Below, piece by piece: positions 368-54,122 of a DNA stretch of 64,000 nt. The first letter of the stretch is position 1; the number at the start of each line of letters is the position of its first letter. The notes beneath the pieces were generated by a model. The model had not been told where the DNA came from and ran no database searches. It saw only the letters and a program-made list of their open reading frames with translations. Source of the DNA: Candidatus Tisiphia endosymbiont of Sialis lutaria (lineage in GTDB: Bacteria; Pseudomonadota; Alphaproteobacteria; Rickettsiales; Rickettsiaceae); assembly GCF_964026535.1 (NCBI RefSeq), contig NZ_OZ032153.1, forward strand, positions 744,001 to 808,000. Reading direction: 5' to 3'. The position numbers were made by a program, and so were the translations under genes.

Positions 368-3073
368 TTGAGAATGACCCTCCCCATAGACCTAAAACAA
401 AAAATTATTACGTTACCAACTAATAAACTTAATGGTTTATATGTAAAACATAATAAAGAAGATGATAATATCACAATCATTAACTCATCAAATGAACTAA
501 GATATATAACTATAGATAGGCAGTTTGTCCTATTTAAGGGGAAACAATTTATTAGTTTGCTTAATAAAGGAACTTTGGTTAAGGGTGAAATATCCTTTAC
601 AGTTGCTAGAAAATTGACGTTTTTAAATTCAGAATTAGAAGTCCCTTTATCTAATCTAGAATGTTTTAAAATTGTGCTTACCTTAAAAGCTAACACAGAA
701 GTTAAAATAAAACAATTTACTTATTACATAACTAAAAAAAGTAAATTTGACAATCCTGTTTCTACAGCTGATACATTGATAATTTCTCCTGGATATCCTA
801 GTTCTGCAAACCTGTATAATTTTGGTTTTGTTCATACTTCTATTAAAGCTTTTACCAATCATAATATTAAGCCAGAGGTTTTTTGTCATGATGATAATAA
901 TAGTTTTGTAAATGAATTTGATGGTGTAAAAGTTTATTATAATAGTTTAAGTTTTTTAAAAAATATAATAACTAATTCTAATTTTAAGAGAGTTATAATT
1001 CATTTTATTAATGAGAAATTACAAGATATTATTGATAGTGTAATTTTTTATCATGGTATAAAAATTTATTGTTACATTCATGGTGCGGAAGCACTTTACA
1101 GATATCAAGAATCATTTTGTGTGGCGTATGATGGGACATATAATCCCTATATTACGACTTGGCAAATGAGAATAAAAGATTTAATGTATAAAAAATATGC
1201 AAATAATAAAAATATAAAATGGATATTTGCAAGCAATTGGTTAAAGGCAGAATCTGAGAAATATATAAATACCAATTTCAATAATTTTGCCATAATTCCA
1301 AATGGTATAGATACTGATATATTTAAATATGTTAAAAAATCTTCAGATGATAGGTTAAACATATTTACTTTAAGAAAATTCGATAATTACAATAACTATG
1401 CTTTAGATCTAGTAATAGAGACCATCAATATTCTTCAGAATAAAGAATTTTTTAATCAACTAAACTTTTTTATTTATGGAGATGGTTTATTATTTAAAGA
1501 TTTCTCAGAAAAAATACGATGGTCTAATGTGCATTTTATTCAAGGATTTCATACTCATGCTCAAATTAGCGAGCTTCATAAAAATTGTGGTATAATATTC
1601 CATCCAACAAGACTTGATAGTATGGGGGTTAGTTCTTTAGAAGGAGTAAGTTCTGGTTTAGCGTTAGTTAGTTCTAATGTTTGTGGCGTTCCAGAATTTA
1701 TCAATCCTTCTTATGGTACTTTAAGTAATGATATAGAAAATCCGCAGTCTTATGCCAATATTATTGAGGATTTATTTTACAATCCAGATAGATTTTTAGA
1801 GTTAAGCGAGAAAATGTCTTATGATGTTGCTTCTAAATTTTCACGTAAAATGATTTTGGAAAAAGAATTGCAATTATTTCAAAATGAACAAGAATTTTAT
1901 ATTAAACCTATAGAACATGAGCAAATAAAATTATTATGTATATGTGTTCCTGTTTACAATATTGAGCGTTATTTACCAAGATGCTTAAATTCTATTTTAT
2001 CTTGTGAGAATAAGCATTTACTAGAAATATTAGTTATAAATGATGGCTCAACTGATAACACTCAATCAATTGCTGAAGAGTACCAAAATAAATTCCCAAC
2101 TATTGTAACACTTATAAATCAAAGCAATAAGGGGCATGGTGGAGCAGTAAATACTGGTATTAAACATACTAAGTCAAAATATTTTAAAATAGTGGATGGA
2201 GATGATTGGGTAGATACTCAAGGGCTAGATAATTTCCTAAAATATTTAAATATGTTCGATGTTGATTTAATCTTACATGAATTATCGTATGACATGTTAG
2301 CTAATAGTACTATAAGAAGTGAGGATTGTTATACCCATCTTCCGTCTAAACAAATCTTAATTCTTGACCAAATAAAATTTGATTATTGGGGACCAATTTT
2401 ATCAACTTCAACTTATAAAACTGATATTCTTAAGAAATCTAATATTATACTAACTGAAAAATGTTTTTATGTAGATATGGAATATAATGCGAAAGCTATA
2501 CAATATGTTAAACAGGTTCTGTATTTAGATATACCACTTTATAAATATTATATAGGCAGACCTACCCAATCCATTGCGGCAACAGGATTTAAAATCCATG
2601 ATCATGAAAAGATAATTCTCAATATTCTAAATTATTTGCAAACTAATGATACCACCTTATACAATAAGCGATTAATAATGAATAAAATGTTATTTCATAT
2701 GCTAAAAGGTCATAGAGATCGTATTTTGCAAGTCAGTCCTCTTAGCAAGGCTAATTTAGAATTTTTTAAAAAAGTTAAAGATATTAATAATATAATTAAT
2801 TGGGATATTAATTCTCATGATATCAGTAGGGAATTAGATAATTACTTATCAAAAATGAGACTCGTTACAATAATAGATATTAAATTTGATAAATGTTTTA
2901 GTTATATCAAATTATTTATAAAAAACTTATTAATAACACCTTATACTCTAGGGTTTTTTACTTATAAAATACTAAACACTTATGATATCTATTATTTTAA
3001 TAAGTATGCAAAAATATTAGCGAATATACTTATGCTACCAAAAAAAATAGCCAGTATAATATTAAAAAGATAA
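368..3073 (+). CDS. Bifunctional glycosyltransferase (GT4 + GT2 domains)
   Basis: This is a protein of about 900 residues with two glycosyltransferase modules. Residues about 135-500 resemble a GT-B, family 4 transferase: a Rossmann-like start (LIISPGYPSS), then FIYGDG, an EGVSSGLALVSS segment and CGVPEFI, the usual acceptor/donor pocket. Residues about 520-720 are a GT-A family 2 domain: CICVPVYNIERYLPRCL, VINDGSTDNT, NKGHGGAVNTG and the metal-binding DGDDW. The first 130 residues have no recognised domain. The frame opens with TTG at 368; an ATG six bases later is equally likely to be the true start. It follows glf directly, so it may transfer galactofuranose or other sugars to a lipopolysaccharide or exopolysaccharide. 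Donor and acceptor cannot be read from the sequence. Confidence 0.85.
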   Translation: MRMTLPIDLKQKIITLPTNKLNGLYVKHNKEDDNITIINSSNELRYITIDRQFVLFKGKQFISLLNKGTLVKGEISFTVARKLTFLNSELEVPLSNLECFKIVLTLKANTEVKIKQFTYYITKKSKFDNPVSTADTLIISPGYPSSANLYNFGFVHTSIKAFTNHNIKPEVFCHDDNNSFVNEFDGVKVYYNSLSFLKNIITNSNFKRVIIHFINEKLQDIIDSVIFYHGIKIYCYIHGAEALYRYQESFCVAYDGTYNPYITTWQMRIKDLMYKKYANNKNIKWIFASNWLKAESEKYINTNFNNFAIIPNGIDTDIFKYVKKSSDDRLNIFTLRKFDNYNNYALDLVIETINILQNKEFFNQLNFFIYGDGLLFKDFSEKIRWSNVHFIQGFHTHAQISELHKNCGIIFHPTRLDSMGVSSLEGVSSGLALVSSNVCGVPEFINPSYGTLSNDIENPQSYANIIEDLFYNPDRFLELSEKMSYDVASKFSRKMILEKELQLFQNEQEFYIKPIEHEQIKLLCICVPVYNIERYLPRCLNSILSCENKHLLEILVINDGSTDNTQSIAEEYQNKFPTIVTLINQSNKGHGGAVNTGIKHTKSKYFKIVDGDDWVDTQGLDNFLKYLNMFDVDLILHELSYDMLANSTIRSEDCYTHLPSKQILILDQIKFDYWGPILSTSTYKTDILKKSNIILTEKCFYVDMEYNAKAIQYVKQVLYLDIPLYKYYIGRPTQSIAATGFKIHDHEKIILNILNYLQTNDTTLYNKRLIMNKMLFHMLKGHRDRILQVSPLSKANLEFFKKVKDINNIINWDINSHDISRELDNYLSKMRLVTIIDIKFDKCFSYIKLFIKNLLITPYTLGFFTYKILNTYDIYYFNKYAKILANILMLPKKIASIILKR

Positions 3074-3142
3074 TGAAGAAGGAATGAGTTGAGCCTGATT
3101 AATTTCTTGAATTTACCATTGAATAATCTAGTATAAAAGATA

Positions 3143-3200
3143 TATAGTCAATTAACTTGAATTGGCAACGTTATAAATCGATTAGTATTTAGCCTTAACG
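3143..3200. repeat. Interspersed repeat, family D copy 1
   Basis: About 58 bp containing TGGCAACGTTATAAATC and GATTAGTATTTAGCC. It is present in inverse orientation at 6302-6360 and as a shorter copy at 32047-32090. One end carries TATAGTCAATT, shared with the family A palindromes. No coding potential is seen. Confidence 0.75.
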
Positions 3201-3224
3201 TCATAGCTCAAAGCCACTTTAGTC

Positions 3225-3412
3225 ACAACTGTTGAAAGTTAGAAGGTAAAGCGGGTTTTAGATAGGTTTTTTGTCATTGCGAGACCACGCAAGTAGGTCG
3301 TGGCAATCCATCTTTGGTTACTTTTATGGATTGCTTCGGAGGCGTACGCCTCCTCGCTAATAGACAGCACGATGGGTGCTTATTCGGCACCAATTCAGGT
3401 TAACTGACTATA
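3225..3412. repeat. Chimeric palindromic repeat with GTCATTGCGAG core
   Basis: Together with 3143-3200 this fills the gap of almost 400 bases between the glycosyltransferase and the amidase. The left arm CACAACTGTTGAAAGTTAG is that of the complete element at 39557-39765. The core begins with GTCATTGCGAG and has the paired half-sites GTGGCAATCCA and TGGATTGCTTCGG. The right arm (CGCTAATAGACAGCACGAT and following, to 3412) is instead the arm seen at 48110-48279. The two arms therefore belong to different repeat types. Confidence 0.8.
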
Positions 3413-3468
3413 GAACTGGTTAGCTACACTTAATTTTTTAACATAATTTATAGTGATTGGATATTTGT

Positions 3469-5001
3469 ATGACAAATAAAGCTCTTGATCTCTTTTTAAG
3501 ATACTATCTTTTTATAATAGTTGCATTATTAAATGCTGGCTGTTCTCATAAAAGAGTGGAGGCTTTATCTAAGCCGCATCCTGATATTGTAAGCTTTCAA
3601 AATGATTTTGCTCATTTACAAAGAGAACTTCCTGTATTGCAAAAGAAAAACTTACTTTTCCTAGCCCCTGTGCCAGTTGCAAATTATGGTGACAGAGAAG
3701 GTAAAAAAGTATCAATGGTTATAGTTCACCATACTGGTATATCAACATTAAAAGATACAAAAGAATTGCTAAACAAAATAGGTCTGTCTGCTCATTTTAT
3801 TGTAGATAAGGATGGCAGTATTACGTTAACGGTTCCTTTAGAAAAGCGAGCATACCATGCTGGTATTAGTTATGCTAAAATTAAAATGGGTGAGCAATTT
3901 GAAGAATTAACTGCTTTAAATAATTATTCTATCGGCATAGAAATAGTGAATACTGGGCGTGAATTGTTTTCACAACAGCAAATGGAATCTGTAAAAGAAT
4001 TACTCCTATATCTTATGAAACGTTTTAAAATAAGAAAAGATATGATATTTAGTCATTCTGAAATAGGAACAATATTGTACAGTAAAGCATTTGATAGTTA
4101 TGTGCTACGTAAAGTTGATCCGCATAGATTATTTGATTGGGAGTTATTGGAAAGAAATAATATAGGTCTTCATATAAATAATAGAATAGAATCCAACGAG
4201 GCTAAACGTTTAATGAATAAAGTATTATATAAAATGGGAGATAAAAACACAGATATTCTAAAATTAAAAGAAAGACTGAATAGATTTTTTTATAAGATAC
4301 GACCTTGGAATGATAAAGAAGGTAAGGTAGTTTTGCCTGATGATCGTATCAATTATTCAAATGAATTTGATGAGAGTTTTATGTGGGTAGTATATCAGTT
4401 TTCGATACATAATCTACCAATAGAAATTAGGAAGGATTTACCCTTAAAACTTGAGCAACAAGATGTATTTCCTAAGTTTTTAGATAAGTATCGAGATAGT
4501 ATTTATAGTGAATTCAATAATTTACACTCCAAAATTCATATGCTTGTTAAACCACGTGATTTAAATGAAAAAGACTATAAATATTTATTAACTTCCCTTA
4601 CAAATTATGAACAAGAAGTATCACGTAATACGTTCAATAGCTTAATATATAAAATGGAAATATATTATAATTCTGAGTTAAGGTATGATATAATCTTGCC
4701 ATATAAGACCTTTAAAAACAATTTATTAAATAAAATAGATGTTTTACAACAAGATATTTTATCTTTGAAATCTTTAGATAGTCATAAAATTACTGAGGTT
4801 TCAAATTTAATAGCTATGTTCAAAACAAATATTTCTTCTGAATTTCAAAATCTTGAAAGAGAGTATTCTCAACAATATATAAAAGTATGGAAAAAAGAAT
4901 TCCTACCTCTTATGAAAAAACAAGTTAAATGGACTGCCTTACATGAGGAAATATTAAAATACTTAGAGAAATCTAAATCACAAATTAATGAGACAAACTA
5001 A
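3469..5001 (+). CDS. Lipoprotein N-acetylmuramoyl-L-alanine amidase (Amidase_2 family)
   Basis: The ATG at 3469 gives a signal peptide with a hydrophobic run (YYLFIIVALL) and a lipobox LNAGC, so the product should be a lipoprotein; an in-frame TTG lies 12 bases upstream. The catalytic domain, about residues 75-220, fits the zinc-dependent peptidoglycan amidase family (AmpD/AmiD, PGRP fold): VIVHHTG with the first zinc histidine, SAHFIVDKDG, YHAGIS, the IGIEIVN strand and VDPHRLFDW with the last zinc histidine. The remaining 280 residues are charged and helical, with no recognised domain. The expected reaction is cleavage of the bond between N-acetylmuramic acid and L-alanine in the periplasm, for wall remodelling. 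The long C-terminal extension is unusual for AmiD-type enzymes. No co-transcribed neighbour is evident. Confidence 0.85.
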   Translation: MTNKALDLFLRYYLFIIVALLNAGCSHKRVEALSKPHPDIVSFQNDFAHLQRELPVLQKKNLLFLAPVPVANYGDREGKKVSMVIVHHTGISTLKDTKELLNKIGLSAHFIVDKDGSITLTVPLEKRAYHAGISYAKIKMGEQFEELTALNNYSIGIEIVNTGRELFSQQQMESVKELLLYLMKRFKIRKDMIFSHSEIGTILYSKAFDSYVLRKVDPHRLFDWELLERNNIGLHINNRIESNEAKRLMNKVLYKMGDKNTDILKLKERLNRFFYKIRPWNDKEGKVVLPDDRINYSNEFDESFMWVVYQFSIHNLPIEIRKDLPLKLEQQDVFPKFLDKYRDSIYSEFNNLHSKIHMLVKPRDLNEKDYKYLLTSLTNYEQEVSRNTFNSLIYKMEIYYNSELRYDIILPYKTFKNNLLNKIDVLQQDILSLKSLDSHKITEVSNLIAMFKTNISSEFQNLEREYSQQYIKVWKKEFLPLMKKQVKWTALHEEILKYLEKSKSQINETN

Positions 5002-5101
5002 ATATAGTCAAATTTTTTAAATAATTTGCATATATCTATTAGCGTAATGAATTTTTGTGATAAAATGTATATATTTATTCACTACGAAATAAACAATCGG
5101 A

Positions 5102-5158
5102 TTGTGAGTTATTAGCAGATTGGTTGCTCAACTCAACAAATCTACCATAACTCACAAA
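5102..5158. other. Strong hairpin between convergent genes
   Basis: An 11-bp perfect inverted repeat, TTGTGAGTTAT and ATAACTCACAA, encloses a further imperfect pairing (CAGATT with AATCT). It lies between the amidase stop and the convergent end of the XRE regulator gene. It has no T-run, so it is not a classical intrinsic terminator. It could act as a bidirectional terminator-like structure or protect 3' ends. Confidence 0.55.
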
Positions 5159-5199
5159 TTGCGTAACATAAATAAAATTTTATATATGTTTTATCTCAC

Positions 5200-5574
5200 C
5201 TAATCTTCTTTAATCAAAGAACGTATCAATGCATTAACAGCTTGTTGATGTGCAGGGTTACGAATCTTCATAAAGTTTCTTGATACTTCTATGCACATAC
5301 GCTGATGTTGAGTATGTACAGGCTCGACATTATCCGCTCCTTCTAAACCATCATAAAAATAATCGATATTTTTTTCTAGTGCTTTAGCAATAAGAATCAG
5401 CCTACCCATTGGTATTCTATTAATGCCCTTTTCATATTTTTGTAACTGTTGATGTGTTACTACTATTACCTTTGCAAGTTGTTGACGTGACAACCCCTTA
5501 GCAAGCCTTAAAGAATAGATCTTTTCACCTATAAATTTGTCAGCTTTTTCTATAAAGTCATTCTTTCGTGCCAT
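5200..5574 (-). CDS. XRE-family helix-turn-helix regulator
   Basis: A 124-residue protein with a Cro/cI-type helix-turn-helix at about residues 13-70: IGEKIYSLRLAKGLSRQQLA, then VTHQQLQKYEKGINRIPMGR, and FYDGL closing the domain. The C-terminal 50 residues (RNFMKIRNPAHQQAVNALI) are helical and may form a dimer or sensor helix; this arrangement is typical of short alphaproteobacterial XRE regulators. The start at 5574 is preferred over an upstream in-frame ATG because the strong ribosome site AAAGGAGT lies just before it. The gene stands alone between repeat-filled gaps, so its targets are not evident. An A+T-rich stretch upstream (5640-5800) may hold its promoter, but no clear boxes were seen. 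Confidence 0.88.
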   Translation of the reverse strand: MARKNDFIEKADKFIGEKIYSLRLAKGLSRQQLAKVIVVTHQQLQKYEKGINRIPMGRLILIAKALEKNIDYFYDGLEGADNVEPVHTQHQRMCIEVSRNFMKIRNPAHQQAVNALIRSLIKED

Positions 5575-5938
5575 AGTTAACTCCTTTATGAATGAATTAT
5601 TAAATTTTTGCAAATATACTTATTAATAAATGCAAAGATTACTGTCATATATTATATAACCTAGAAAGGCAACAATTAAATTAAAATAGGTTTATTTCTA
5701 TGTAAACTAATCTACTATCAGTAAATATTGGATATGTCGTTTGTTTACGCACAAGTAATACTTAATATTTTTTAACTTTTATATAATTATAATGATATTA
5801 TAGATACTTGCCCGTCTTGTAAATCTATATTTTACAAAGTACAAGATGTCATTGCAAGGAGACCGTAAGGTTGACGAAGCAATCCAGGAAAGTGATTAGA
5901 AATGGATTGCTTTGTCGACCTTACGGTCTCCTCGCAAT

Positions 5939-6261
5939 CTGATATATCCCCACGAAATTGTTGCAAAATAGCAAGAATTGATAGAATATCATCATTATTT
6001 AATGATGATGGAGATAGTAGGTTATGGATGTAAAAACAGTATTAAATGATTGGGTTATAGGTGTGGTAGGCTATAGCCAAGGTATGCAAAGAATTTTCCA
6101 ACCTAACACAGTAAAAGATAAAAAAATTTATTCGTATTGTACTCTTGGGAAATTTATTATTGAATTTAATTATTTGCATGCCATAAAACCATTGGTAGAA
6201 CCCCTTGCATCTATTATAAAGACGGAGCTTTGTCATGCTTAATTTCGTGGGGATATATTAG
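5939..6261 (+). mobile_element. Internally deleted IS4/IS10-like element (copy 1, 323 bp)
   Basis: The ends are inverted repeats: left CTGATATATCCCCACGAAATT, and the right end reads inversely CTAATATATCCCCACGAAATT. An 8-bp direct duplication, CTCGCAAT, flanks it at 5931-5938 and 6262-6269. The termini resemble the CTGATGAATCCCC-type ends of IS10, from memory of that element. The interior keeps only the two ends of a transposase gene, so the element cannot move by itself. Confidence 0.85.
6024..6242 (+). pseudogene. IS4-family transposase remnant with internal deletion
   Basis: A 72-residue reading frame inside the 323-bp element. It starts MDVKTVLN, which matches the start of the second copy, then jumps to a segment (FQPNTVKDKK, TLGKFIIEF) that fits the C-terminal end of IS10/IS4 transposases, where HFQANTVRNRN is followed by RLGMEVL. 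The DDE catalytic core is absent. The stop codon lies at the edge of the right terminal repeat. It is a deletion derivative and not a functional gene. Confidence 0.75.
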
Positions 6262-28302: not shown

Positions 28303-28502
28303 ACTCACCTTACGCATGGCATTTAAAAGTCATATAGAAAATAGCTTGGCGTCATTGCATCAGCGTCATTGCGAGAAGCCACTTTAGTGGCGACGAAGCA
28401 ATATATATGTGGATTGCCACGCTCACGTACGTTCGCTCGCAATGACGCTTTGTACTTTTCCGAAATTTTTAAATTGTCATGGGGTTTATGCGTAAGGTGA
28501 GT
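28303..28502. mobile_element. Palindromic MITE-like repeat with ACTCACCTTACGCAT ends, copy 2
   Basis: Left end ACTCACCTTACGCATGGC, right end ATGCGTAAGGTGAGT; arms contain ATATAGAAAATAGCTTGGCG and ATTTTTAAATTGTCATGG. The core has a small duplication (GTCATTGCATCA then GTCATTGCGAG). It fills the 340-base gap before terC; 28503-28620 is A+T-rich and unremarkable. Confidence 0.83.
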
Positions 28503-49402: not shown

Positions 49403-50743
49403 ATGATAGAAAATAATTTTATTACTAATTTAGTAAATCAGGAATTCTCAGTCACTGAAATTTCTAGCAAGATTAAGGAATTGCTTGAAAATAACTTTGG
49501 TTATATTAGAGTAAAGGGAGAAATTTCTGGTCTTAAGATAGCAACTTCTGGTCATGGTTATTTTAATCTTAAGGAAAATACAGCGATTCTAGCTTGCACT
49601 TGCTGGCGTCCGGTACTTGCCAAAATTCAATTTACCCCAGTTGATGGTATGGAAGTGGTAGCTATTGGTAAACTCTCTGGATATGCAGGGAATTCACGAT
49701 ATCAGCTATCGGTAGAGGCTCTTGAGCCTGCAGGTCTTGGGGCTATTATGCAAATTCTCAAGGAGCTGCAAGCTAAATTAGAAAAAGAAGGTATCTTTGA
49801 TAAACCAAAAAAACCATTACCTTTCTTGCCTAATAAGATTGGGGTAGTTACCTCAATGACTGGGGCGGTAATTAGGGACATTATACACCGTATTAATGAT
49901 CGCTGTCCGTCTCATATACTAATATGGCCAGTCACTGTTCAAGGTGGCAATGCTGCAAGTGAAATTGCTGGGGCAATTGAAGGGTTTAATAAATTAGAAC
50001 AAAATATAAAACCTGATGTTATAATTGTTGCAAGAGGTGGGGGTTCTATAGAAGATTTATGGGCATTCAATGAAGAAGTAGTAGTACGTAGCGTATTTAG
50101 TTCAGATATTCCTATTATTTCAGCAGTTGGGCATGAAGTAGATAATACTTTAATCGATTTAGTAGCTGACAAGAGAGCTCCTACTCCCACTGCGGCAGCT
50201 GAATTTGCCGTACCTGTACTTTCTAGCCTTAATTACACAATAAGTTCGTATTATGAGACATTACTTAACCGTATTATTCAGCTAGTTAAATATCAACAGC
50301 AAGCCGTTAACTCCAATACTAATATTTCCAAAAGTCTAACTACTTATATAGACTATAATCAACAGCTTCTTGATGAACTAAGTTTTAGATTAACAGAGTC
50401 TTTGCCCAATTTACTTAAATTCAAAGAGGCAAAACTTGATTCACTGAATGTAGAAATATTAAATCCTATGAAAATAGTTGATTATAAGTCTTTAGAATTA
50501 GACCATCAATTTAATTATACACTAAAATCTATTAGCACTAAGTTAAAAAATTATGATCATCAATTAAATTTAAATAATCTACTACTTACCAGTTTAGACT
50601 ACAAAACCGTACTAAAACGTGGCTTTACGGTAATCAAATCCGCCGATGGAGAATTTATAACATCAAAAGTTATGGCAAGCAAAAAACAAGAATTTAATAT
50701 TAAATTTTTTGATGGTGATATATTAGTCCACACTATAAAATAG
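49403..50743 (+). CDS. xseA: Exodeoxyribonuclease VII large subunit
   Basis: A 446-residue protein of normal length. The N-terminal OB-fold (residues about 15-115, [20 protein letters not shown]) is followed by the catalytic domain with [38 protein letters not shown] and [23 protein letters not shown], then a coiled-coil region where the small subunits bind, and KRGFTVI near the end. It degrades single-stranded DNA with XseB. A family A palindrome begins 3 bases after the stop. Confidence 0.96.
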
Positions 50744-50745
50744 TG

Positions 50746-50837
50746 TATAGTCAATTGATGAGAAGTTGGGGACGTTGTCACTCGTCGCTCGCCTATTACT
50801 TTCGCTCCTAGCCCCAAATTCTCATCAATTGACTATA
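50746..50837. repeat. Family A palindrome (92 bp)
   Basis: TATAGTCAATTGATGAGAAG to CATCAATTGACTATA, three bases after the xseA stop. Both ends read TCAATTGATGAG, so the arms are more symmetrical than in other copies. Confidence 0.9.
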
Positions 50838-50884
50838 TACTCTAATTAGCTTGAAGTAGAATTTAATGAGGAGATCTGTACACC

Positions 50885-52489
50885 ATGCAAATACTTAAGA
50901 GTATCATCCCGATTATTATTATCTTACAAAACTTTTTTGCCTATGCAAATCATAAGGAGAATAATAATCAACTATCTAATCCCCTTGACACATATTTTAC
51001 TCAATGTACTGAAGGGGTAAATGATAAAGATCATTTGCTTGTTGATTGCTATTCATTGGAACCCTACCAATTTAGCCATGTAACTAAAAGTGGACACCAT
51101 AATATTACCGGTTTAGATATTGAATTAATCAATGCTATTAGTAGTAAAATTAACATTGGCATACAATATACTGATTCTGCCTGGGAACAAGTAATATCCA
51201 ATATCCAACAAGGTAAAAGTGATATGGTGCCAGGACTTACTTATACCGAGGAAAGAGCAGCCTTTGCCAATTTTTCTATCCCGTATCGACTTGCAGAAAT
51301 TTCCTTATTTACTTTACGTTCAGCAAGAAAACATCTACATTTTAATAATACGAATGAATTCTTAGCTCAGATACGTTTACTAAATTTTCGTCTTGGCATA
51401 ACTAGAAAAGCTGTTTATGGCAATACCAGAACTACTGAGTACCTAAATCAGGCTAGTAATAATGACATCATCATTAAATATGGCAGTAATGCAGAGCTAT
51501 TTAAGGGGTTGCTACGTAATGAAATTGATGGGGTTCTTGCTGACAGGATTGCAGGGGTAGCTCTTACTTTAAACTATATAGAAAAAGATCAAATAGAAGA
51601 GATCCCTACTGGTATTAAAACCCCTGTACATTTAATGTTTAGTAAGAAAACCGTATCTCCTAATTTAGTCGCCAGGTTTAACAATTCAATTAATGAATTT
51701 ATCAATAGCGACGAATATAAAAAAATTGTAGAAAGGTATAAATATAATATCCTACTGCTAAAATCTATCGATTCATCATGGTGTTATATTATTGGAGTTA
51801 TAGGGAGTATAGCATTCGCAATTTCTGGTATCATTATATCAGCTAAAACCAATGCTACGTTGTTTGTTACTTTTGTATTAGCAATGTTACCATCCTTACT
51901 AGGATGTATTTTACTTGATATTGTAGTACATAGTGTTAATGCCAGTCTTATTTTAACTCCATATTATACTTGCCGTATTTTTATAACGGTGCTTATTGGT
52001 TTCTTTGCTATTAAATTACTAGCTTATTATAACAAGCAATTATATGAGGATGATTTTATCCAAAAAATACGCAATAATACTCTTATTGTTTGTGATTCCT
52101 TAGGGCAAGCATCTTTTATGATAATTGGTGTTATAACTGTAATTGTACAAAAAATTGAACCATTAGAGTTCTGGGGACCATGTTTTGCCTGTTTGACTTC
52201 TAGTGTTGGTATAATATTCCGAAATTTAATTTGTCAACATGATAAAAATATCGAGTCTATACCTAGAGAAATTAATTTTGAAATATTAATATTGTGGGGT
52301 GCGATCTTTAGTATATTATTAGATTCTTATGCTTATAAGCCTGATTATAGTACAATAAAATACTCTATTATTACAGTATTTGTAGGAGCTTTTGTTAGTA
52401 GGCTTTTAGTTTACTACTATAATATCCCAAACTTAACTTTTCGTTCGGATAATACAGAAATTCTTACAAAAAATATAAACACAAATTGA
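50885..52489 (+). CDS. Solute-binding domain fused to TRIC/UPF0126-like membrane domain
   Basis: A 534-residue protein with two parts. After a signal-like start (IPIIIILQNFFAYA), residues about 45-290 match the family 3 periplasmic solute-binding fold: GLDIELINAISSKI, SAWEQVISNIQQGKSDMVPG, FSIPYRLAEISLF and IDGVLADRIAGVAL. Residues about 295-510 have six or seven membrane helices; GVIGSIAFAISGIIISAKTN resembles the repeat start of UPF0126/TRIC proteins, and a second half repeats the theme (LGQASFMIIGVITVIVQKIE). A binding domain joined to such a channel would give a one-piece uptake protein, probably for an amino acid. The GAGGAG site lies just before the ATG. The fusion is clear; the function is inference. 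Confidence 0.82.
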   Translation: MQILKSIIPIIIILQNFFAYANHKENNNQLSNPLDTYFTQCTEGVNDKDHLLVDCYSLEPYQFSHVTKSGHHNITGLDIELINAISSKINIGIQYTDSAWEQVISNIQQGKSDMVPGLTYTEERAAFANFSIPYRLAEISLFTLRSARKHLHFNNTNEFLAQIRLLNFRLGITRKAVYGNTRTTEYLNQASNNDIIIKYGSNAELFKGLLRNEIDGVLADRIAGVALTLNYIEKDQIEEIPTGIKTPVHLMFSKKTVSPNLVARFNNSINEFINSDEYKKIVERYKYNILLLKSIDSSWCYIIGVIGSIAFAISGIIISAKTNATLFVTFVLAMLPSLLGCILLDIVVHSVNASLILTPYYTCRIFITVLIGFFAIKLLAYYNKQLYEDDFIQKIRNNTLIVCDSLGQASFMIIGVITVIVQKIEPLEFWGPCFACLTSSVGIIFRNLICQHDKNIESIPREINFEILILWGAIFSILLDSYAYKPDYSTIKYSIITVFVGAFVSRLLVYYYNIPNLTFRSDNTEILTKNINTN

Positions 52490-52522
52490 ATAAATAGTCA
52501 TTAAAAGTAGTATATGGTCAAA

Positions 52523-52800
52523 GTCATTGTAAGGAAGACCGTAGGTCGACGAAGCAATATACAAGTCTGATGGATTGCCACGCTCACATACGTTCGCTCG
52601 CAATGACGTATGCGTTTGAGGAGTCGTAAGTCGATCCGTCATTGCGAATAAGACCTTAGGTCGACAAAGCAATCCACAAAAGTAACCAAAAATGGATTGC
52701 TTCGTCGGCTCATGCCTTTTTGTAATGACATATATGCACCCCAATCGTCATTGCGAAACCATGTAATGGTCGAAGCGATCCATTTTTGATCACTTTCTGG
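52523..52800. repeat. Array of three degenerate core repeats
   Basis: Successive cores start at GTCATTGTAAGG, GTCATTGCGAATAAG and GTCATTGCGAAACC, linked by CGTATGCGTTTGAGGAG and ATATATGCACCCCAATCG. The last core is incomplete. It fills the gap between the fusion gene and the convergent MFS gene. Confidence 0.8.
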
Positions 52801-52824: not shown

Positions 52825-54015
52825 CTACCGACTCTTCACCGCCCATATAGTAGCTAAAGTAATCATTGCAATATAAATTCCTATAGATATAGAAGAGTCA
52901 GTAAAGTGCCAAAGAGCTATGCACACTGCAGGAGCAGAGCGTCCAAATATTGAAGTACCTAAAGCATCACCAATACTAACCAGCATATATTTATCTGAAC
53001 CATGAAATAAGCTATTAAGCCAATAATTTAGTGGGCATAAGAAAGTTACCCCTAAGGCAATAATCCATAAACGGACAAAATTAACATACCATATAGAAGC
53101 ATCAGTCATATATAACCATAATGGTACTATGCTAATAAATAGAATGCTAGTACTTACGATCATTACATCCACAGGACGATATTTTTTAACAAAATACCCT
53201 ATTAATGGAATCATTGCTGCATCTACGATTAATAAAAGAGTATTAACACTCATCATCGCTTCCAAAGATATAGAGGTAATAAGAGGGACAAAACTATTCA
53301 TCACTACAAAAGGTATGACATATGTCATATAGGAAAAGCCACTAATTATAGATATACGCAGAATATTGTACTTATTATTCAATATCACATTTGATGGGTA
53401 AGATTTTTGTTCTATTGCTCTTTGAGACATATTGGAATAACGTCTAAGATAAACCCCTACAATCCCTGTACTACCTCCTAATATAAAACATAAACGCCAA
53501 TATTCATGGTGACTAGAACTAATTAGAATTGCACTGACAGAAGAGGCAATAATAATCCCAAACATTGTTGATAGTTCGTATAGGTAAGATGCTTTCACTC
53601 CTCGACTCTGCGTCTTATTTTCTACAATATATAATTTGGCAATACAATGTTCTCCTTCACCAAAAATTCCTAACATCATTCGAATAATAAGCAGCATCAA
53701 TGGTGAAAACCAGCCAATCATTTGATAAGTTGGTATAACTCCTATTAACATAGTGGTAATAGCCACACCTATTAATGAATAGGATAAAGCCAAAGTTGCC
53801 CCTCGTTTTTTTGCAATTATACTAAAAATTATTGAACCAATTGGCCTGGTAATTATTGAAGTTGCTAACATGCCATAGGTTAAGATCAAAGCAACTATAG
53901 GGTCATCTTTAGGAAAAAAGACTATTGATAAAATTGGAGCAAGAAAACTATAAATAGCCGTATCAAAATGATCCAGACTATTACCTATTAAAATTGATAA
54001 ATCTTTCTTTTTCAT
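52825..54015 (-). CDS. MFS transporter (ProP/metabolite:H+ symporter type)
   Basis: A 396-residue membrane protein with about 12 hydrophobic segments. The first helix region SILIGNSLDHFDTAIYSFLA and the second RPIGSIIFSIIAKKRGATLAL are typical of the metabolite:H+ symporter family that includes the ProP osmolyte carriers; FGEGEHCIAKLYIVENKTQSR-type sequence matches its central motif. Rickettsia have several proP-like genes. The ATG at 54015 is chosen; an upstream TTG gives 8 more residues. Its likely role is import of an osmolyte or small acid from the host cytosol. The solute is not decided. Confidence 0.82.
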   Translation of the reverse strand: MKKKDLSILIGNSLDHFDTAIYSFLAPILSIVFFPKDDPIVALILTYGMLATSIITRPIGSIIFSIIAKKRGATLALSYSLIGVAITTMLIGVIPTYQMIGWFSPLMLLIIRMMLGIFGEGEHCIAKLYIVENKTQSRGVKASYLYELSTMFGIIIASSVSAILISSSHHEYWRLCFILGGSTGIVGVYLRRYSNMSQRAIEQKSYPSNVILNNKYNILRISIISGFSYMTYVIPFVVMNSFVPLITSISLEAMMSVNTLLLIVDAAMIPLIGYFVKKYRPVDVMIVSTSILFISIVPLWLYMTDASIWYVNFVRLWIIALGVTFLCPLNYWLNSLFHGSDKYMLVSIGDALGTSIFGRSAPAVCIALWHFTDSSISIGIYIAMITLATIWAVKSR

Positions 54016-54122
54016 GAGAGACCGTAAAATTTTTGTCAAAAATTATCTATAGCTAACCCGATTAGTATGTTATCCATAGTAACTGGTGCTATTAGCGAGG
54101 AGGCACTTTGTGCAACACACCG

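Follow-up and report, generated by a model that had tools for sequence, protein, structure and literature searches.

A conserved fusion of family 3 solute-binding and TRIC/UPF0126 membrane domains in Rickettsiaceae, a putative binding-protein-controlled amino-acid permease

The analysed DNA (the window, a stretch of 64,000 nucleotides from the Candidatus Tisiphia endosymbiont of Sialis lutaria) contains an open reading frame at positions 50885-52489 of the forward strand, with an ATG start, that encodes 534 residues, with a family 3 solute-binding domain followed by a TRIC/UPF0126 membrane domain in one chain. Such fusions make up a family that is both old and conserved. We tentatively read the protein as a putative one-chain, binding-protein-controlled inner-membrane amino-acid permease, which we consider quite possible though short of probable. 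The features of the gene are as follows.

50885-52489, forward strand: whole gene, fusion of an SBP family 3 domain and a TRIC domain, 534 residues plus stop.
50885-50947, forward strand: hydrophobic, signal-peptide-like N-terminal segment, residues 1-21 (AYA, then N).
51008-51739, forward strand: binding domain, residues about 42-285, expected to be periplasmic (PF00497 at residues 60-285; profile alignments to PDB binding proteins).
51740-51778, forward strand: joint, residues 286-298, with a length of 13 residues in each of the 58 aligned fusions.
51779-52441, forward strand: TRIC/UPF0126 membrane domain in two related halves, residues 299-519 (PF03458 at 51788-52009; both repeats of 5wuf and 5wtr matched by the profile).
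51890-51919, forward strand: TM2 motif region, residues 336-345, PSLLGCILLD; standalone TRICs have T-A-x-G-G-G-x-x-R-D.
52205-52225, forward strand: TM5 motif region, residues 441-447, VGIIFRN; standalone TRICs have GGGxxRD, of which Gly442 and Arg446 are kept.

Both domains match their Pfam families above the curated cut-offs, in agreement with the original prediction of a family 3 binding protein fused to a TRIC/UPF0126 protein. SBP_bac_3 (PF00497) matches residues 60-285 (72.9 bits, cut-off 26.4, E = 2.7e-20) and Gly_transporter/TRIC (PF03458) matches residues 302-375 (35.5 bits, cut-off 23.5, E = 9.1e-9), which is the first TRIC repeat alone. A profile built from 24 homologous fusions extends over the two repeats of solved TRIC chains, at profile positions 293-511 for 5wuf (E = 1.8e-19) and 293-505 for 5wtr (E = 7.7e-18). 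Thus the membrane half consists of the two related halves that had been predicted, and the failure to align with UPF0126/TRIC profiles that would have spoken against the prediction is not observed. The same profile matches binding proteins such as 6h30 (E = 1.3e-29), and all 24 scanned fusions match both PF00497 and PF03458 (the latter at E 0.001). A search of the window protein for channel families other than PF03458 returned none at E 0.1.

The N terminus of the fusion protein shows a hydropathy peak over residues 1-17, and the putative signal-peptide cleavage site (AYA, then N) was assigned by eye. In a simple hydropathy scan the TRIC domain is hydrophobic, with the seven separate helix peaks not resolved. 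Structure prediction from four near-identical sequences (86-100% identity) gave a pLDDT of 31.6 and was unusable. The genome has one PF03458 match, which is the fusion, and two PF00497 matches, the second of which is a free protein in a frame of 247 residues. The nearest named relative of the window protein is from the Rickettsia endosymbiont of Culicoides newsteadi (99.8% over 534 residues).

The distribution of the fusion was followed from the family to the phylum. We infer the family (f1) to be Rickettsiaceae, the own genus (g1) to be the torix-type genus and genus g21 to be Rickettsia sensu stricto. Some match is present in 75 of the 85 family genomes, a count that takes in binding-protein-only matches, and the frame runs uninterrupted across both halves in at least 49 of the 85 by our own reading. 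In the own genus, 15 of 16 genomes have an uninterrupted fusion and the remaining copy is 75% complete. In g21, the fusion is uninterrupted in 10 of 23 genomes and broken, partial or cut in 13; many relatives therefore manage without it, which counts against the permease reading. Among 338 genomes drawn from the class, at least 15 match the full fusion profile at E 1e-50, at least 13 of them over both halves (own genome included) and two over the TRIC domain alone. An assembly or frameshift artefact is ruled out because of these one-frame fusions across the family and two-half matches across the class, and the search for the same fusion in other genomes that had been proposed with the prediction is thus answered in its favour.

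Outside the family, the PF03458 matches in 261 genomes drawn from the order are frames of 120-259 residues, except for two in an exonuclease VII frame. G198 and G208, considered as fusions elsewhere in the order, proved to be weak hits inside the frame of the exonuclease VII large subunit and were dropped. At the level of the phylum (398 genomes drawn, E 1e-25), the full-length matches among those listed are in genomes of the same class only. None of the matched plasmid records (0 of 31 and 0 of 26) holds 80% of the query. Two or more long matches each are present in G443, G398, G495, G560, G523 and G624, among the matches listed. A tandem pair of SBP-TRIC fusions lies at 3026-6259 on the reverse strand of locus L090 in the 3.5 Mb genome G443, and G398 and G495 have at least three fusion matches each.

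The SBP_bac_3-TRIC fusion is enriched in reduced genomes. Among 81 TRIC-positive genomes of the class, it is present in 9 of 12 of at most 2.0 Mb versus 4 of 69 above that size, among the matches listed (Fisher p = 5e-7, relatedness ignored), which counts for the permease reading. This comparison leaves out a fusion of TRIC with an NMT1 domain in genome G480 (p = 3e-8 with it), fusions of that kind having been sought in the smaller genomes only.

In a FastTree phylogeny of the TRIC halves, one clade (support 0.89) contains the fusions and two TRIC-only proteins, and the 45 fusions of the family form a clade of their own (support 0.986). The TRIC-only relatives of the fusion type come from two genomes, G342 and G465 (loci L093 and L091), and inspection by eye found no adjoining binding protein within the stretch examined at either locus. 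The TRIC type is therefore not strictly tied to the binding domain, and these two proteins count against a fixed partnership of the two. Both halves are under purifying selection in the ten pairs tested, with dN/dS of 0.12-0.40 in the binding half and 0.14-0.44 in the TRIC half, in pairs that we picked and of which seven include the window protein; this counts for the permease reading.

Residue conservation was analysed in an alignment of 58 fusion proteins, which omits near-duplicates (L008, L011, L013, L014), broken or cut copies (L025, L067, L072, L073), and fusions that were seen in G006, G027, G398, G495 and G308 together with partial ones. Of 33 positions counted, seven are invariant in all 58 sequences: Asp78 and Arg135 in the binding half and Pro336, Asp404, Pro426, Gly442 and Arg446 in the TRIC half. 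Arg124 and Asp220 align with an Arg and an Asp of family 3 binding proteins in the PDB, at positions that we take to be those of the residues holding the amino acid, and are jointly kept in 51 of the 58 fusions, which counts for the permease reading. The intracellular setting assumed by the original prediction is correct, and this pair together with a link of UPF0126 to glycine (accessible part of PMC12173739) makes an amino-acid role plausible; the predicted "self-contained uptake device" stays putative.

The joint between Tyr285 and Trp299 has 13 residues in all 58 aligned fusions, and this too counts for the permease reading. The spacing from Asp78 to Gly110 is equally constant (58 of 58), and that some core segments match the joint in this respect counts against the permease reading. 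The span from TM2 to TM4 varies in length from 54 to 66 across the fusions. Being as constant as some core segments while that span is variable, the joint behaves more like part of a folded structure than like a loose linker.

The charges of the loops, a weak test, agree with a periplasmic binding domain. With helix borders that we set from TRIC topology, the loops placed inside have mean Lys plus Arg counts of 1.14, 2.67, 2.52 and 3.10 (6, 20, 17 and 24 residues), and those placed outside 0.78, 0.91 and 0.26 (13, 9 and 9 residues). Per residue this is 0.13-0.19 inside versus 0.03-0.10 outside, which counts for the permease reading.

The pore residues were compared with those of TRIC channels and of 15 standalone TRICs, all from loci of the same order and one of them cut (L037). 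According to the accessible part of PMC5477506, the GGG motifs of TM2 and TM5 are a TRIC signature and make central kinks, TM1 and TM4 carry a conserved Phe, and an Asp-Arg-Asp-Tyr set (D99, R139, D140 and Y155 of SaTRIC) forms a cytoplasmic lock; TM1-2 and TM4-5 bound the pore, TM1 lines it and the N-terminal bundle forms its outer mouth. The sections of PMC5401562 at hand describe a plug Tyr, and they put a K+ site at or near the glycine kinks. The window protein has LGC at the GGG site of TM2 and VGI at that of TM5. The TM2 motif is absent from the own genus (0 of 11) and g21 (0 of 10) and present in 15 of 24 other fusions of the family and in 13 of 13 outside it, that is, in 28 of the 37 more distant fusions. 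For TM5 the respective counts are 0 of 11, 0 of 10, 13 of 24 and 7 of 13. As GGG is missing from all the own-genus and g21 sequences, the pore there may be altered or shut, which counts against the permease reading. The "TRIC-type channel" of the original prediction thus stands as far as the TRIC domain goes, and the plain label does not suit the window protein, which has lost the GGG signature of both helices.

Other parts of the pore are retained to differing degrees. The Phe of TM1 is kept in 57 of the 58 fusions, which counts for the permease reading, and that of TM4 in 53. The TM4 Asp (Asp404) and TM5 Arg (Arg446) of the lock are present in all 58, again counting for this reading; the second Asp is replaced by Asn in 11 of 11 own-genus sequences, and the lock Tyr, by alignment, is found in none of the 45 fusions of the family and in 13 of 13 others. 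The plug Tyr shows the same division (0 of 45 in the family, 13 of 13 outside fusions and 15 of 15 standalone TRICs), which counts against the permease reading. The simplest reading of these sequences puts an ordinary TRIC pore at the origin of the family, with its centre and gate later altered in the Rickettsia branch and the binding pocket mostly unchanged. The likeness of the fusion to the prokaryotic TRIC/UPF0126/Gly_transporter proteins (5wtr, 5wuf, 5h35) thus covers both repeats of the membrane domain, the pore Phe, the TM4 Asp and the TM5 Arg. In comparison with standalone TRICs, the fusion is extended at its N terminus by a binding domain of about 290 residues, and the window protein is without the GGG motifs and the plug Tyr. 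Compared with the 15 of the same order, the fusion also has a two-residue Gly-Pro insertion before TM5, as well as Pro336, Pro426 and Trp430.

As a permease, the protein would probably assemble as a trimer like the known TRICs. Its N-terminal domain, presumably in the periplasm (N-out), would close on an amino acid. The short joint of fixed length ties this domain to the pore-lining TM1, and closure could therefore act on the pore, a coupling suggested by the geometry. The pore of each subunit would then admit a small amino acid, with glycine or a near relative as the first candidate for the presumed permeant and inward movement as the presumed direction, and import would need neither an ATPase nor a separate permease. 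In favour of this reading, UPF0126 genes are important for glycine use in 11 bacteria (accessible part of PMC12173739), and Rickettsia need host serine and glycine while their transporters of proteogenic amino acids are uncharacterised (PMC5615194, in the portion available). Against it, the protein shows no evident coupling ion or energy source, and prokaryotic TRICs behaved as cation channels when measured (PMC5477506, same sections as above).

Since prokaryotic TRICs conduct cations, the anatomy agrees about equally well with an amino-acid-gated ion channel. The amino acid would then be a signal and not cargo, and closure of the binding domain would open a K+-type TRIC pore, which we regard as possible but on the unlikely side. 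The constant-length joint to the pore-lining TM1 favours this alternative as well, as does a match below the cut-off between the binding half and PF10613, the ligand domain of glutamate/glycine receptors (E = 6.7e-4). However, that match reaches 20.2 bits against a cut-off of 30 and is present in one of the 24 scanned members, and the GGG lost in the window's genus falls in the kink region near the K+ site (PMC5401562, in the sections cited above). The plan resembles that of ionotropic glutamate receptors of the GluR0 type, in which a family-3-like binding domain is also joined to an ion-channel domain. The pores are unrelated: ionotropic glutamate receptors carry a K+-channel-like pore within the sequence of their binding domain, whereas the membrane part of the fusion is a C-terminal TRIC domain. 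With PF10613 below its cut-off and PF03458 as the sole channel family at E 0.1, the window protein does not classify as an ionotropic receptor. It is unlikely, though worth stating, that alphaproteobacterial symbionts independently evolved an amino-acid-gated channel in which a family 3 domain opens a TRIC pore, with the pore centre rebuilt in the Rickettsia branch; the ionotropic-receptor plan would then have arisen twice, the second time on an unrelated channel fold.

Two further explanations were considered. The device may work in the GGG-bearing relatives and no longer conduct in the window's organism, as a degenerating relic in the Rickettsia branch. The retention of GGG in 0 of 21 own-genus plus g21 sequences, and the broken, partial or cut copies in 13 of 23 g21 genomes, would agree with such decay, but it is made quite improbable by the uninterrupted frame in 15 of 16 own-genus genomes with the last copy 75% complete, by dN/dS well below 1 in both halves and by the retention of Asp404, Gly442 and Arg446 in every aligned fusion. 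Alternatively, the binding domain could be a membrane-tethered partner of another transporter, such as a polar amino acid ABC permease, with the TRIC domain as an anchor or with a separate function. The genome does encode one such permease (TIGR01726), away from the fusion gene, besides the second, free binding protein. However, the fusion gene is flanked in the window by xseA upstream and by an MFS protein and AsmA downstream, with no ABC permease or ATPase among them, and the nearest named ABC gene in the window is lptB, about 3 kb upstream. Ten scanned neighbours of distant fusions, seven of which matched a family, likewise include no ABC permease or ATPase and no shared partner. Together with the similar purifying selection on the TRIC half, this leaves a tethered partner improbable. 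The gene xseA lies just upstream of the fusion in the own-genus and g21 loci examined and in L048/L049, L065/L066 and L076; it was not found within the examined stretch of the other family fusions examined.

The likeness of the fusion to the family 3 solute-binding proteins of ABC importers of the GlnPQ and HisJ type lies in the PF00497 profile and the Arg and Asp positions; theirs are free or ABC-linked, whereas that of the window is fused to TRIC. Family 3 binding domains serve as sensors too, besides being ABC partners. In G480 (L078, 3368-5197, reverse strand), an NMT1/THI5-like domain (PF09084, E = 3.8e-25) shares one chain with a two-repeat TRIC domain (PF03458, E = 4.4e-31) of the same type as that of the fusion (hhalign probability 99.8, profile columns 274-525). 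The binding protein thus belongs to another family, and the inter-domain stretch (259 to 384) is longer than in the SBP_bac_3-TRIC fusion. This NMT1-TRIC fusion was found in one alphaproteobacterial genome only, one of two of its order, and from this single genome it suggests an association between binding proteins and this TRIC type.

A literature search over the titles and abstract openings listed, with subscription journals mostly outside its coverage, found no description of an SBP-TRIC fusion. The accessible part of PMC7016017 names TRIC, with no binding-protein terms found in it, and that of PMC5615194 does not name the fusion gene; protein databases may already list both domains on such proteins. 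Rickettsia depend on host amino acids, and the fusion gene is a conserved candidate importer in the lineages that keep a whole copy. Relatives whose copy is broken must have another route for glycine if they too depend on the host for it. The fusion connects two half-explained facts, the cation conduction of TRICs in vitro and the role of UPF0126 in bacterial glycine use, and because an amino-acid-type binding domain and a TRIC occur naturally in one chain, the conflict between cation and glycine becomes testable in a single protein.

The DNA around the gene has further features. The MFS protein (52828-54039, reverse strand) is convergent with the fusion gene and is of the metabolite/H+ symporter type, ProP-like (TIGR00883 below cut-off). 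A long palindrome at about 50743-50840, between xseA and the fusion gene, has a fold z of -5.9, and an 84-base query from it has at least 42 matches in the genome, itself included; it is presumably a Rickettsia palindromic element. Just 3' of the fusion gene, repeat-like DNA extends over 52500-52790, and an 18-base piece of it recurs exactly at 28430-28447. The reverse frame of this repeat-like DNA contains an open reading frame of 103 residues, which is probably spurious.
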